DNA from: a bacterium
GTDB taxonomy: Bacteria > UBP14 > UBA6098 > 4484-93
Assembly: GCA_021158465.1 (NCBI GenBank)
Contig: JAGGUN010000034.1
Span: forward strand, 1-9,747
Direction: 5' to 3'
DNA: 9,747 nt
Shown: piece by piece, positions 1 to 7,387 of the stretch
Layout: every line of letters starts with the position of its first letter
How positions within the stretch are numbered: position 1 is the first letter of the stretch
Made by a program: the position numbers and the translations under genes
The notes under the pieces: generated by a model
What the model was told of the DNA's origin: nothing
Database searches by the model: none
The model's input: only the letters and a program-made list of their open reading frames with translations

Positions 1-1
1 A

Positions 2-151
2 GAGAATAATGTTAGTCTTAATCAATATATAACTTCCATCCTATCGAGTGTGCGCTCTGAGGTGCAGATTCCTCGAAAGGAGTGGTTCCCAAGGGTTAAG
101 TCCAGCCGAACCGTTAGTGGGAAAGAAGAAGGAGAATTAAGTGCAGCATAA
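2..151 (+). CDS. HicB-like antitoxin, C-terminal fragment with extension (partial, 5' end outside window)
   Basis: An open frame runs from the left edge to TAA at 149-151 and gives 49 visible residues. It opens with ENNVSLNQYITSIL, which resembles the second helix of the ribbon-helix-helix DNA-binding domain at the C-terminus of HicB-type antitoxins. HicB antitoxins normally end soon after that helix. Here about 33 further residues follow, polar and basic, with a short hydrophobic/aromatic patch (V21-Q-I-P, then E27-W-F-P). In TAC systems the antitoxin carries such an extension, called the chaperone addiction (ChAD) sequence, which a SecB-like chaperone binds. The next gene here is SecB-like and starts inside this gene's last codons, which supports that role. 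Only the fragment is visible, so the HicB assignment rests on one short motif plus context. Another RHH-type antitoxin is possible. Confidence 0.62.
   Translation, partial: ENNVSLNQYITSILSSVRSEVQIPRKEWFPRVKSSRTVSGKEEGELSAA
131..134 (+). promoter_or_regulatory. Ribosome binding site of the SecB-like gene
   Basis: GGAG lies six bases before the GTG start at 141, inside the coding sequence of the preceding antitoxin gene. It decides the GTG start and suggests the chaperone is translated from the same mRNA as the antitoxin. Confidence 0.75.
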
Positions 152-572
152 GATAACTCCAAAGGAGTACAATAGAATTCTCGAGGGGCTTCAGCCGGTA
201 ATCGTGAGTTTGGAATCCCTTTCTGCTTGGGTCGATAGAGAAAATGCTTTCGAAATGGGCACTAGACCGAGTGCTGGATGTAAGGATGCGACTTTTGTCC
301 AGGGTGGGGAGAATGTGGTTGTAATTGCATCTTATCGATGTAGAGTAAGAAAGGGGCGGAAGGTTATTCTGAAAATTGACGCTACATACAGGGTCGAATT
401 TTCTTCAGAGGAGCCATTTTCTGACGAGTTCTTCGATACTTACAAGGAAAGCTCTCTCCAGCTTCTCCTGTGGCCCTTTTTCCGGGAGCTGGTTTATGAT
501 ATAACCTCGAAGATGTATATTCCGCCGCTTGTTTTGCCGTTCCAGATCGTCTATCAGCCCCCGAAGGAGTGA
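141..572 (+). CDS. SecB-like chaperone of a toxin-antitoxin-chaperone (TAC) module
   Basis: The 143-residue product has the size and layout of the SecB family. Residues 5-30 form the first strand region. Residues 58-88 form beta strands (VVVIASYRCRV, then KVILKIDATYRVEF). Residues 92-106 are a short acidic segment. The family hallmark comes last, LWPFFRELVYDITSKM (110-125), followed by the proline-rich IPPLVLPF (127-134). SecB is a cytosolic homotetramer that holds unfolded clients. TAC-type SecB homologues instead protect the antitoxin from aggregation and proteolysis so that it can neutralise its toxin. The GTG start has a good GGAG site and overlaps the upstream antitoxin gene by 11 bases, so the two are probably translationally coupled. 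A housekeeping SecB would not normally sit behind an antitoxin gene. The SecB fold is well supported by motif; the TAC role is inferred from context. Confidence 0.85.
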   Translation: MQHKITPKEYNRILEGLQPVIVSLESLSAWVDRENAFEMGTRPSAGCKDATFVQGGENVVVIASYRCRVRKGRKVILKIDATYRVEFSSEEPFSDEFFDTYKESSLQLLLWPFFRELVYDITSKMYIPPLVLPFQIVYQPPKE

Positions 573-693
573 GGGCGACAGCCAGACTGCTTGTGAGTGG
601 GGAGAAAATTTAGTTGTAAGCTCTGGAACTGGCTTTTTCAGGCTGGCAAGAAGCAGAAGGGAGCACATAAAATAGGATAGGAAATCTTATCTG
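573..693. other. Convergent intergenic region between the TAC module and the yggS operon
   Basis: This 121-base gap separates two gene ends. A weak inverted pair (AGCCAG near 580, CTGGCT followed by five T near 635) could help end the plus-strand transcript, but the loop is long and I do not call a terminator. A sigma-70-like element pointing to the left is listed separately. No gene is seen here. Confidence 0.5.
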
Positions 694-3597: not shown

Positions 3598-5118
3598 CTA
3601 CTCTTTTTCGTGGAACTTCACAACCTGGAATGTATATATTTCGATATCTGGGTCTTTGTAGCAATCTGGTGGCATGCCTGCTTTCTGGTAGCAGAGCTGA
3701 GAGAGAAACTCCTCCTTTGTCCAGCCTGTCTCATCTGCCACCTGCGGCAAGAACACCCCTGAGCGGTATCCTTTTCTGATGTAGACGCCATCTCTTCCGA
3801 GAACAATATCCTCCCAGGATGGGACGGATTTGAGAGGGGTCAGAATAGAGATTTCGATGTTGATATCGTCGAGCTCTTCTGGTTTGACAGGAGGGAATCT
3901 GTAGTCGTGTGCGGCGGCGGAGACTGACATATCGATAACAGCCTTGTACAAAGCCTCCTGTGCGACCATCTGCCCGATGCAACCCCGCAGCTGCCCTTTT
4001 TTGTTCAGGGTTACGAAGACGGCGAGCTTCTTTTTCAAAATCTCGTCTTCCGGTGGCGCTATGGACATCTTTTCCCCTGTCTTCAGATAATACGATATGG
4101 ACCGCCTTGCAAGGTGGAGAAGATACTCTTTTTGCTTGTTGGTGATATTCAGGAACGGTTTTTCCTTCTCGTCTTTGTTATCCTCTTTTTTCTCATTTCC
4201 TGCTGTATAGACAGCGGAGAGGTAGCCTACTACCCTTGAGCTGTCTCCGTATCGGACATCGCCGGAGTTTGCACGGTTGAGAACCACAGGGTTGTTCCAG
4301 CCGGCGGAGAGGGCAAGCTTCATGAGGGTGAGCACTGCCATGTATCCGCACATCTCCACCTCATGGGACTCGAGGGCGCTGAGCATACGGTCTATCTCTC
4401 CCGACACAAGGATTTCGGCAAGCAGGGAGTCTTTTCTGTTGCATTCACTGTAAGAGTGGTAGTGCGACAGGTCTGAGCTTGCGATGAACACCACATTTGT
4501 GTCGCTTGCAAAGGGAAGAAGCGCCTTATATACCGCCTCTATCTCCTCCATTCCTCCCGAGCCAAAGAGAACGGGGACTATCTTGAGGTCGGAATCGAGG
4601 GCTACCTGCAAAAAAGGCAGTTGCGACTCGATAGAATGCTCCTTTTTGTGCATCGATGGCTTGTAATCTATCAGGGGAGAGGAATTGATTATCTTGCGGG
4701 CGCGCTCCTCATCGATAGGGATATCACCCAGCGGGGTTCCGTATACACCTTCTGCAAATACGGATACACCGGAGAATGAGACATAGTGCGATGGTCCCAT
4801 TATAACGAATGTTTTGCCCCGATAAGATGCTTTCTGATTTTCGAGCAGCTTGTATCCATAAGCCGCAACAGGACCTGAGAAGATGAACCCTGCATGAGGG
4901 GAGATAATTCCTCGGATGCTACCTTTGACATCCTTTGGGTGGGTTTGACTGAGGAACCCTTTGACGAATTTGAAGAGCGTATCCTTGTCCGCAGGATACC
5001 ACATTCCAGCCACCGCAGGCTGCCTTACGACCATTTCCTTTTCCCCCTTCCTTGTTTCCACTCTCTTGCAGAAGAGGAGGAGAGGCAGAACAAGCAGGAT
5101 AGCAATTCTCCTTATCAT
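3598..5118 (-). CDS. Exported MEMO-AMMECR1 fusion (AmmeMemoRadiSam proteins B and A in one chain)
   Basis: The 506-residue product has three parts. Residues 1-17 look like an export signal: MIRR, a run of Ile/Leu/Val, then a cysteine at C17. The preceding LLF is not a standard lipobox because Phe replaces the small residue at -1, so lipoprotein status is uncertain. Residues about 31-305 are a MEMO domain with RQPAVAGMWYPAD, SPHAGFIFSG (H75), GPSHY (H111), SSDLSHYH and MCGYMAV (C257). H75, H111 and C257 correspond to the two His and one Cys that hold metal in MEMO proteins. After a charged linker (307-320), residues about 325-500 are an AMMECR1 domain with the signature LRGCIG (377-382). In many prokaryotes these domains are separate proteins encoded with a radical SAM enzyme; none is visible here. 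The biochemical role is unknown. It is monocistronic by position. The ATG lacks a Shine-Dalgarno site. Confidence 0.93.
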   Translation of the reverse strand: MIRRIAILLVLPLLLFCKRVETRKGEKEMVVRQPAVAGMWYPADKDTLFKFVKGFLSQTHPKDVKGSIRGIISPHAGFIFSGPVAAYGYKLLENQKASYRGKTFVIMGPSHYVSFSGVSVFAEGVYGTPLGDIPIDEERARKIINSSPLIDYKPSMHKKEHSIESQLPFLQVALDSDLKIVPVLFGSGGMEEIEAVYKALLPFASDTNVVFIASSDLSHYHSYSECNRKDSLLAEILVSGEIDRMLSALESHEVEMCGYMAVLTLMKLALSAGWNNPVVLNRANSGDVRYGDSSRVVGYLSAVYTAGNEKKEDNKDEKEKPFLNITNKQKEYLLHLARRSISYYLKTGEKMSIAPPEDEILKKKLAVFVTLNKKGQLRGCIGQMVAQEALYKAVIDMSVSAAAHDYRFPPVKPEELDDINIEISILTPLKSVPSWEDIVLGRDGVYIRKGYRSGVFLPQVADETGWTKEEFLSQLCYQKAGMPPDCYKDPDIEIYTFQVVKFHEKE

Positions 5119-5124
5119 ACCACA

Positions 5125-5155
5125 ATCATAATAAGGAATTTTTCAAGAAAGTCAA
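5125..5155 (-). promoter_or_regulatory. Candidate promoter of the MEMO-AMMECR1 gene
   Basis: On the minus strand TTGACT (5150-5155) is followed by TATGAT (5125-5130) after 19 bases, longer than the ideal 17. The -10 box is only six bases before the ATG, which would put the transcript start at or next to the start codon. Confidence 0.35.
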
Positions 5156-5161
5156 AAAGTT

Positions 5162-5190
5162 TTGCAAATGGTGAGCGTGTCGAGTATATT
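5162..5190 (+). promoter_or_regulatory. Sigma-70-like promoter of the secreted-protein gene
   Basis: TTGCAA (5162-5167) and TATATT (5185-5190) are exactly 17 bases apart, matching consensus at four and five of six positions. The pair lies 32 bases before the chosen ATG at 5222 and diverges from the MEMO-AMMECR1 gene. Confidence 0.55.
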
Positions 5191-5221
5191 AGAAAGTCAA
5201 GTGAAAGATCAAGGAGAGGGT

Positions 5222-7387
5222 ATGAGGTATTTTAGGTATTTCTTGCTTGCAGGATTCCTTTTGACCTCGGTTGGCTCTTTATCGTCGAGGGTGCTTGTCT
5301 CGGCGTTGCCGGATGTTAAGCTGACCGTCGGAGACTCGGCTACCAGTCACTACATTCTCAAGGGGACATTCGGTGTCGGAACAAATGCCCCCGAGCTACC
5401 GCTTTTGTTCGATTTCCCTGATCCTGTCAGCCGATGCCGCTCGTATTTTAACCTCAAACTCGATGGAACGCTGTATTCACTTTCTCCCTTTGTTCCCGCC
5501 GATGAATGTATAGGTGATTATGTCGAGGGAGGGACGCCGTTCGTATCTGGTCCATCCATCGTAACATCCTGGGCTGTGCCCGACACAGATGGGTTGAGGA
5601 TAACCCAGACCCTTGTGCCAGAGCGGCTCGGTAGCGGGAGGGGGGTAGTGCGTTTCTGCTGGGAATTTGTGAACAATTCCTCCGAGAGCCATACTGTTGG
5701 TCTTCTGCTCGTTTTCGACCTGCTCATATCCGGTCCTATTGGTGATGATGCACCGACAAGTATCGGTGGGGTATATTCGGAGAACGAGCGTGTATTCGAG
5801 GGCGATATCCCCACCGACTATCTTGCCTTCAGCTCCACACCTACTGATACGAGCGTGGTCGTTGCGAGGGGGATACTCTACGGCTACAATGCAACCATAC
5901 CCGATATATTCGGCGTGCTGGATGCATCGAGGCGGTATCCTCTCCTCTGGGATTACGATTTCGACCCACTCTGGCGATACTCCGACTGTATGGTTTTCTA
6001 CCGCTGGAACGAGCAGGAGATGCTACCGGGTGACACACTTATTATTGAGACATTCTTTGGACCGTCCGATATGGTAACATCGTCGGGTGAGATGACGATT
6101 GGAATCCCGGAGATAGAGATAACGAGCACCGGCTGCCGGTTCGACCCTGACAGTATCTTCATCCGTGGTTTTGTCCAGAACAAGCTGCGCATCCCGACGA
6201 CGCTGTTCGATGTTCAGCTCTGCATACACCTCCCCGATGGGTTCTATTTCCCCTGCTCACCGGAGACGAGGGATTCCTGCCGGCTCGTCGACCCATCGAC
6301 GCTTCTACCCGATTCCGTCGGCTTCACATCCTGGTGGGTCTGGCTCGATGAGGCGGAGTTCCCAGAACCGGGAACGGTGTTTGTCTCATTCACCGCAACA
6401 ACAACGACAGCGGGCGTCTTGCCATCTTCCATCGATGTCCCCACTGCTATCCCGTATCTTATCAGTATGGACTATGAGGTGATGCCTGTCTCTCCTGACA
6501 CAGCGATTATGTTTTTCTCCTGCCCATCGACAGATTTTGTCTACATAATATCGGGTGATATATCTGCCGTGGATACATCCTCGGCTCAGTTCCTCTTCGA
6601 GGGTGAGATATTCGACTGCTCATCGGGCAGGATTGAGTTTGTGGACTCGCTTATTATCTTCCATCCGGACGGGTTTGTTCACGGAGAGGAGGTTTCAGCT
6701 TGCATTGTTTCCCTGTATGACACATCGGGCTGCTCCGTATTGAGGAGACCTGGTGGCTGGAATTTTACCGTTGACCTCGAGCCACCATCCGTTGAGTTCG
6801 TCTCGCCGGGCGAGGATACGGTTGTCGCATCACTGTTCGAGCCTGTTGTAATCCATATCGAAGACCCATCGGGAATTGTGGTGGATTCTATTTTGCTTTT
6901 GCTCAATGGTGAGCCTGTCTCTCCCGACGAGATAGTCTGGAACCCCGATGATGCTCTGCTGACATATGTTCCAGCGGATGGTTTCCCCGACTCAACGGAT
7001 ATTACCGTCTGCATATCGAATGTTCAGGACATAGCTGAGGGATGTGGAGCGAACATCCTTGTTGATACCCTGTGCAGGCATTTCCGTGTCGAGACATCGG
7101 GAATCAACGAGACACTCCCTCTCTCACTTGCGATAAAGAGCGTCCAACCAAATCCGTTCAACGCGTCCTGCAGGATAACGCTCGATATTCCACGGGGGAT
7201 AGCCTATCCTGCTTCGCTTGAGATTTACAATATAGCAGGCGAGCTTGTCGATAATATGGCGATTTTACCTATTCCCGGGGAGAAGGGCGTTATCTGGAAT
7301 GCAAACAATCTCCCATCGGGGATATACATCCTTTCGCTCGAGGCAGGCTCAGAAAAGGTTATCAGGAAGCTTGTTCTTATCCGTTAG
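5222..7387 (+). CDS. Large secreted Ig-like protein with C-terminal PNPFN sorting/FlgD-like domain
   Basis: The start is set at ATG 5222 because AAGGAGAGG (5211-5219) precedes it and the protein then opens with a signal peptide (MRYFRYFLLAGFLLTSVGS); the in-frame TTG at 5162 lies in the promoter. The 721-residue product is all-beta in appearance. Residues about 30-290 form a domain with RITQTLVPER, VRFCWEFVNNSSESHTVGLL and a closing MLPGDTLIIETFFGP, a pattern seen in uncharacterised surface proteins of candidate phyla. Two or three Ig/Big-like sandwiches follow, one beginning LEPPSVEFVSPGEDTVV. The last ~85 residues form the sorting domain: SVQPNPFN (PNPFN at 643-647), LEIYNIAGELV, LPSGIYILSL and a terminal RKLVLIR. 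In Bacteroidota such domains direct type IX secretion; in candidate phyla the route is less certain. About 16 cysteines suggest disulfides outside the cell. No catalytic motif is seen, so a structural or adhesive role is likely. Confidence 0.85.
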   Translation: MRYFRYFLLAGFLLTSVGSLSSRVLVSALPDVKLTVGDSATSHYILKGTFGVGTNAPELPLLFDFPDPVSRCRSYFNLKLDGTLYSLSPFVPADECIGDYVEGGTPFVSGPSIVTSWAVPDTDGLRITQTLVPERLGSGRGVVRFCWEFVNNSSESHTVGLLLVFDLLISGPIGDDAPTSIGGVYSENERVFEGDIPTDYLAFSSTPTDTSVVVARGILYGYNATIPDIFGVLDASRRYPLLWDYDFDPLWRYSDCMVFYRWNEQEMLPGDTLIIETFFGPSDMVTSSGEMTIGIPEIEITSTGCRFDPDSIFIRGFVQNKLRIPTTLFDVQLCIHLPDGFYFPCSPETRDSCRLVDPSTLLPDSVGFTSWWVWLDEAEFPEPGTVFVSFTATTTTAGVLPSSIDVPTAIPYLISMDYEVMPVSPDTAIMFFSCPSTDFVYIISGDISAVDTSSAQFLFEGEIFDCSSGRIEFVDSLIIFHPDGFVHGEEVSACIVSLYDTSGCSVLRRPGGWNFTVDLEPPSVEFVSPGEDTVVASLFEPVVIHIEDPSGIVVDSILLLLNGEPVSPDEIVWNPDDALLTYVPADGFPDSTDITVCISNVQDIAEGCGANILVDTLCRHFRVETSGINETLPLSLAIKSVQPNPFNASCRITLDIPRGIAYPASLEIYNIAGELVDNMAILPIPGEKGVIWNANNLPSGIYILSLEAGSEKVIRKLVLIR

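Follow-up and report, generated by a model that had tools for sequence, protein, structure and literature searches.

The stretch of DNA analysed here (the window) is a complete contig of 9747 bases from a genome of 2.04 Mb in 54 contigs, and it opens with the 3' end of a hicB gene running into a complete gene for a SecB-like protein (Table 1). The open hicB frame comprises a ribbon-helix-helix DNA-binding end, NNVSLNQYITSILSS, followed by a C-terminal tail, VRSEVQIPRKEWFPRVKSSRTVSGKEEGELSAA, and terminates in SLNQYITSILSSVRSEVQIPRKEWFPRVKSSRTVSGKEEGELSAA. An AAGGAG read directly within hicB stands 6 bases before the GTG of the SecB-like gene, a position that makes it a likely ribosome-binding site.

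The window begins with 127 bases that are identical to the last 127 bases of another contig (C51) of the same genome, an exact match of the type presumably left by a fixed k-mer assembler, and hicB is a single intact frame when read across this overlap. A sister MAG, from a record titled candidate division Zixibacteria bacterium 4484_93, holds the stretch to the left of the window start, contiguous with hicB and secB; when this upstream stretch was used as query on the window's genome, it matched the extreme end of C51 with 97% identity. The SecB-like gene thus shares an operon with a type II toxin-antitoxin pair in the sister MAG and, across the contig overlap, in the window's genome. In these two genomes of one genus, hicA, hicB and secB are co-directional, with overlaps of 4 bases (the GTG start of hicB overlaps the hicA stop as GTGA) and 11 bases. 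On C51, purH lies about 50 bases farther upstream of hicA, and the gap between them contains, just before hicA, a TTGACA-16-TATTGT site that resembles a sigma-70 promoter by consensus match only. The first-pass annotation had recognised the tail of a HicB-like gene at the left edge and an overlapping complete SecB-like gene, and had placed a toxin just upstream; the first two were confirmed, and the third was supported by the leftward extension it had proposed, which through C51 and the sister MAG led to an 84-aa gene probably of HicA type.

Table 1. Coordinates of the genes and features described in the text.
Feature	Location	Strand	Remarks
Exact overlap with C51	window 1..127	.	C51 continues left with rest of hicB, hicA, then purH
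hicB, 3' end	window 2..151	+	open at 5' end, ORF runs to contig start; contains SLNQYI
AAGGAG, likely ribosome-binding site of secB-like gene	window 129..134	+	within hicB
SecB-like gene	window 141..572	+	143 aa, GTG start; contains LWPFFRELVYDITSKM; 11-base overlap with hicB
Spacer behind SecB-like gene	window 573-668; L004 1115-1410		
Memo + AMMECR1 protein gene	window 3598-5118	-	
Large secreted protein gene	window 5162-7387	+	
Toxin-position gene, probable hicA	L024 (C51) 4883-5137		84 aa; 4-base overlap with hicB
Second HicA-type gene	C51 2338-2484 (L062)		also G001:C122
Small gene, 3' part, sister MAG	L004 2-235		
hicB, sister MAG	L004 232-693		
SecB-like gene, sister MAG	L004 683-1114		
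Toxin-position genes of class-mates	L005 506-931; L006 1719-2108; L007 580-954		
Thermus Hma locus	L083 2226-3992		T. thermophilus HB8 pVV8; also L082, L090, L091
Deinococcus radiophilus pRadio2 locus	L092 1595-3013		
Escherichia phage PhiR70_1 locus	L093 694-2216		
Acinetobacter haemolyticus pAHTJS1 locus	L095 589-2099		

Behind the SecB-like gene, about 90 bases of the spacer are conserved between both MAGs; beyond that point the sister MAG carries about 200 additional bases, and the gene that follows is the same in both. Elsewhere in the window, one gene encodes a single protein that combines a Memo domain (202.6 bits) with an AMMECR1 domain (191.7 bits), and another encodes a large secreted protein bearing a C-terminal sorting domain of the Por secretion system (29.6 bits), which suggests that the lineage may use type IX secretion.

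The complete HicB of the sister MAG matched the Pfam HicB family (PF05534) with an E-value of 2.1e-11 and 44 bits (cut-off 21), with a C-terminal ribbon-helix-helix as expected of a HicB, and it was 33% identical over 152 residues to an annotated Thermus HicB. The 49-aa fragment held by the window matched no Pfam or NCBIfam family, so that SLNQYI alone is weak evidence and the HicB call could not have been proved from the window itself. The HicB tail comprises 42 residues after the SLN of the ribbon-helix-helix. The five chaperone-linked HicBs of the phylum have tails of 42, 42, 65, 65 and 56 residues, against 16 in the one PF05534 HicB of the phylum that has no SecB-like gene next to it (G011) and 9, 17 and 26 in three two-component HicBs; judged by length (42 versus 16 and 9-26), the antitoxin thus has the C-terminal extension beyond its conserved domain that characterises toxin-antitoxin-chaperone (TAC) systems. 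In composition, the tail combines W-F-P-R with additional basic residues (W...R...R). The ChAD of M. tuberculosis HigA1, 108-WHRLSSYR-115, makes its contacts through W108, R110 and Y114 (PMC6377645). By composition and length the HicB tail resembles this ChAD and may be a candidate chaperone-addiction region, a likeness that is suggestive only. Indeed, one Thermus HicB has a 49-residue tail and no directly adjacent SecB-like gene, an HTH-SecB fusion being two genes away, so that a long tail alone is no proof and is not exclusive to plain TACs.

Against Pfam SecB the chaperone scored 13.2 bits, under the cut-off of 26; the HMM searches suggested by the first-pass annotation therefore upheld HicB and left SecB below threshold. 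The best solved relative of the chaperone was Rv1957, the TAC chaperone of M. tuberculosis (E 2.1e-4, single sequence against PDB sequences). A profile of seven such TAC-type chaperones, the window protein included (A5 profile), matched Rv1957 nearly end to end (5.5e-9, residues 21-163) and export SecB with only 0.25. It is through Rv1957 that the protein joins the SecB family by a match along its length, although in Pfam alone it stays sub-cut-off. It also matched PHROG 16879 (E 1.4e-10) and the PADLOC model PD-T4-9_C for CmdC-type chaperones (E 6.5e-4). Residues 127-130, IPPL, align with LPPL 154-157 of Rv1957, the residues that bind tyrosine 114 of the ChAD (PMC6377645; from the residues named, we inferred that PDB chain and paper differ by 3 in their numbering). 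By our reading of the profile alignment, D27 and R29 of Rv1957, which hold the ChAD tryptophan, are not conserved and correspond to I21 and S23. A two-sequence AlphaFold model of the chaperone was too poor to use (pLDDT 40). The chaperone of the sister MAG is 94-95% identical. No second SecB-like gene was found in the window's genome; a weak chaperone match on another of its contigs (C9, L009) was dropped because it had no TA-like neighbour.

Searches for relatives in viral contigs, with three queries, and for matches of the window chaperone in phages and plasmids at E 0.01 returned none. At E 10, weak phage and plasmid matches, backed by gene context, led to loci in Thermus, Deinococcus, Acinetobacter and a phage. 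On Thermus plasmids, PADLOC recognised HmaB and HmaC of an Hma anti-phage locus, and inside this locus lie HicAB or a toxin of RelE type, an HTH regulator whose tail contains tryptophan, and a protein of 185 aa with an N-terminal HTH and a SecB-like C-terminal part (PD-T4-9_C, 3.2e-5); this cassette is TAC-like, includes an HTH-SecB fusion and sits within a different defence system. The D. radiophilus plasmid carries another HicAB-type TAC, made of a HicA (PF07927, 36 bits), an unannotated long-tailed HicB-like frame and a SecB-like gene. In PhiR70_1, an MqsA-like antitoxin gene, a SecB-like gene and a small upstream gene, all annotated hypothetical, lie beside a lambda-like phage cI repressor. 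On the Acinetobacter plasmid, MqsA and SecB, with a gene in the toxin position upstream of them, follow immediately on the BREX gene brxL.

The gene in the toxin position of the window's genome encodes a protein of 84 codons, MGSIEKRLERWRGLKNFQTVPRNEEEAVLNRYFKGRWGFPRGGSSHIKIKAKGRSISIAVVGQKVYGFYLKRILELIAQEKEGQ. This protein had no match to Pfam HicA (PF07927), and a genome scan with that model did not report it either; a profile built from the GSH-type HicAs, the commoner type in the phylum, gave it E 0.66, below the best shuffles and thus not separated from chance. Against a profile of nine HicAs sharing its N-terminal extension and architecture, it scored 15.9 bits, with 11.4 for the best of 20,000 shuffles (0/20,000 as high); this profile was chosen after the commoner-type one had failed, which makes the comparison less strict than a single test. 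A four-sequence version separated incompletely, 2 of 20,000 shuffles scoring higher. In local alignments, none of 2000 shuffles scored as high as the match to a Treponema HicA, with which the protein has GGSSH in common, and 5 of 2000 scored as high as the match to a Thermus HicA. The predicted model (pLDDT 84.5) has the order helix-strand-strand-strand-helix, and a helix, three strands and a helix are the order expected of HicA. No PDB match was found by sequence, and none was significant in the fold search with the model (best Foldseek E 0.82); VIA, with Z of at most 2.9, placed a few double-stranded-RNA-binding domains amid unrelated rows and was not used as evidence. By profile, gene position and predicted element order, this toxin is probably a divergent HicA. 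A second, ordinary HicA-type gene lies on C51 about 8.5 kb upstream of it.

A single-protein search found a SecB-like chaperone in 5 of the 17 genomes of the phylum and none in the other 12. The SecB model PF02556 had no match in the phylum at E 0.01 and is therefore too strict for these chaperones. All five chaperone genes lie directly behind a HicB that has a short ORF before it; of the six PF05534 HicBs that the phylum yielded, five are linked to a SecB-like gene in this way. The triads are spread over four genera, with chaperones about 20% identical; among them are those of three other genomes of the same class. The hicB/secB overlap is about 35 bases in L005 and L006, and the toxin-position ORFs of three genomes (G016, G012, G008) are longer, at 125-142 aa. 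Two of the three class-mate toxin-position genes had no Pfam HicA match and the third reached 18 to 19.5 bits, under the cut-off; they possibly represent an undescribed HicA subtype tied to TACs.

Taken together, these data lead us to read the locus, with a probability of about 0.88, as a chromosomal tripartite TAC operon, hicA-hicB-secB(TA), with HicA as toxin, HicB as antitoxin and a HicB tail dependent on the SecB-like chaperone. The gene order, the overlaps, the HicB and SecB-like family memberships, the HicA-type profile score of the toxin candidate and the recurrence in five genomes were all observed. Toxicity, chaperone dependence, autoregulation and the trigger would follow the tested TACs (PMC5105189, PMC6377645), from which each step below is drawn by analogy. 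HicA, predicted to be a small toxin with a double-stranded-RNA-binding fold, should cut or block mRNA. HicB would bind HicA, and its ribbon-helix-helix part probably binds the operon's own promoter, while its C-terminal tail would make it dependent on the SecB-like protein, which would bind the tail, let HicB fold and shield it from proteases. When the chaperone is drawn away, be it by proteins that are misfolded or blocked in export or by a phage protein, HicB would be degraded and HicA freed, and growth would stop. Export stress could thus act as the trigger, and so could a phage protein, which is the trigger in CmdTAC and MqsRAC.

Could the SecB-like protein instead be a general export chaperone that lies behind hicB by chance, next to an ordinary two-gene HicAB system? 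No other SecB-like gene was found in the genome, and TAC chaperones of other bacteria can substitute for E. coli SecB (PMC5105189); export and TAC roles could coexist. However, the linkage to hicB recurs in five genomes of four genera with such divergent chaperones, the 12 genomes in which the same search found no SecB-like gene suggest that a general SecB is dispensable in the phylum, and the sequence is closest to Rv1957 rather than to export SecB; we consider this explanation very improbable. The first-pass annotation had named a sole SecB with no toxin nearby as speaking against its proposal; only half of this was found, as the gene is the only one of its kind but does have a toxin gene nearby. 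Somewhat less improbable, though still unlikely, is that the locus is decayed, or a remnant of antitoxin and chaperone only, with no working HicA in the toxin position. The divergence of the toxin and its lack of a Pfam HicA match would fit, and toxin-less antitoxin-chaperone pairs are known in M. smegmatis (PMC3968373). Yet the toxin frame is intact in two genomes at 94% identity and retains its 4-base overlap with hicB, and the histidine of GGSSH is kept, as is the order of HicA elements.

Within the TAC reading, and not exclusive of it, the operon might serve as an anti-phage system whose chaperone detects a phage protein, in the way that CmdC responds to the T4 capsid protein. The match to the PD-T4-9_C (CmdC) model, the protection of E. 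coli against phages by the CmdTAC and MqsRAC TACs, and the presence of relatives in defence loci (the Thermus Hma locus and the Acinetobacter BREX plasmid) are in line with this idea. The neighbours, on the other hand, are housekeeping genes (purH, pyrB and pyrR on one side; YggS, CstA and FtsY on the other) and form no defence island, and we regard the anti-phage role as a tentative option, less likely than not. More speculative still is the idea that the genome's only SecB homologue could be at once antitoxin chaperone and sensor, tying growth arrest, through a divergent HicA, to the export of envelope proteins (or the synthesis of phage capsids), with no export-SecB background and in a phylum most of whose genomes show no SecB.

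The TAC operon that we favour belongs to a known kind, since TACs are spread over many phyla and use HigA or MqsA, more rarely HicB, as antitoxin (PMC3968373, PMC5105189), and the HicAB-type TAC of Methylomonas methanica is functional in E. coli (PMC5105189). The proposal of the first-pass annotation that a HicB-SecB pair would extend the TAC group thus stands for the lineage, and gives way where TACs of many phyla, and of HicAB type, were already published. Our literature search found no paper joining Zixibacteria with TACs, only papers mentioning both terms. Among the three antitoxin families that TACs are reported to use, HicB is the rarest, and only a few cases have been examined experimentally. 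The triads of five genomes and four genera of this poorly known phylum, with chaperones only about 20% alike, are natural variants for the recognition of antitoxin tails by chaperones; in a host that has no other SecB, the TAC function stands apart from that in export, and the locus is small and testable in E. coli.

Compared with Mmet-TAC (M. methanica MC09, Metme_2813-2812 + SecB-TA; PMC5105189), the locus has the same set of HicA, HicB and SecB-like genes and a HicB C-terminal extension, a likeness by description and not by sequence identity; it lies in another phylum and is known from its genes alone, whereas Mmet-TAC is functional in E. coli. HigBA1-SecB(TA) of M. tuberculosis (Rv1955-Rv1956-Rv1957) is likewise a tripartite operon and provides the nearest solved relative of the chaperone, with the LPPL/IPPL motif of the ChAD-binding site and W and R in the antitoxin tail in common, but its toxin and antitoxin are of the HigBA family and its D27 and R29 are not shared. 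To CmdTAC (PD-T4-9) of E. coli ECOR22, an experimentally demonstrated TAC, the link is the PD-T4-9_C match of the chaperone, while CmdT is an mRNA ADP-ribosyltransferase, CmdA is not HicB-like and the genomic setting is another. The HicA-HicB-SecB-like locus of D. radiophilus pRadio2 follows the same three-gene plan, with a chaperone 23% identical and a VWPFMRELV motif, but has a HicA of the GSR...HRPHP type, a hicB unannotated in the record and longer tails. The present locus therefore extends the known HicAB-type TACs to a new lineage and is no new kind of switch; the novelty lies in the lineage, in a divergent toxin that the Pfam HicA model does not match, and in a chaperone besides which no SecB homologue was found in the genome.
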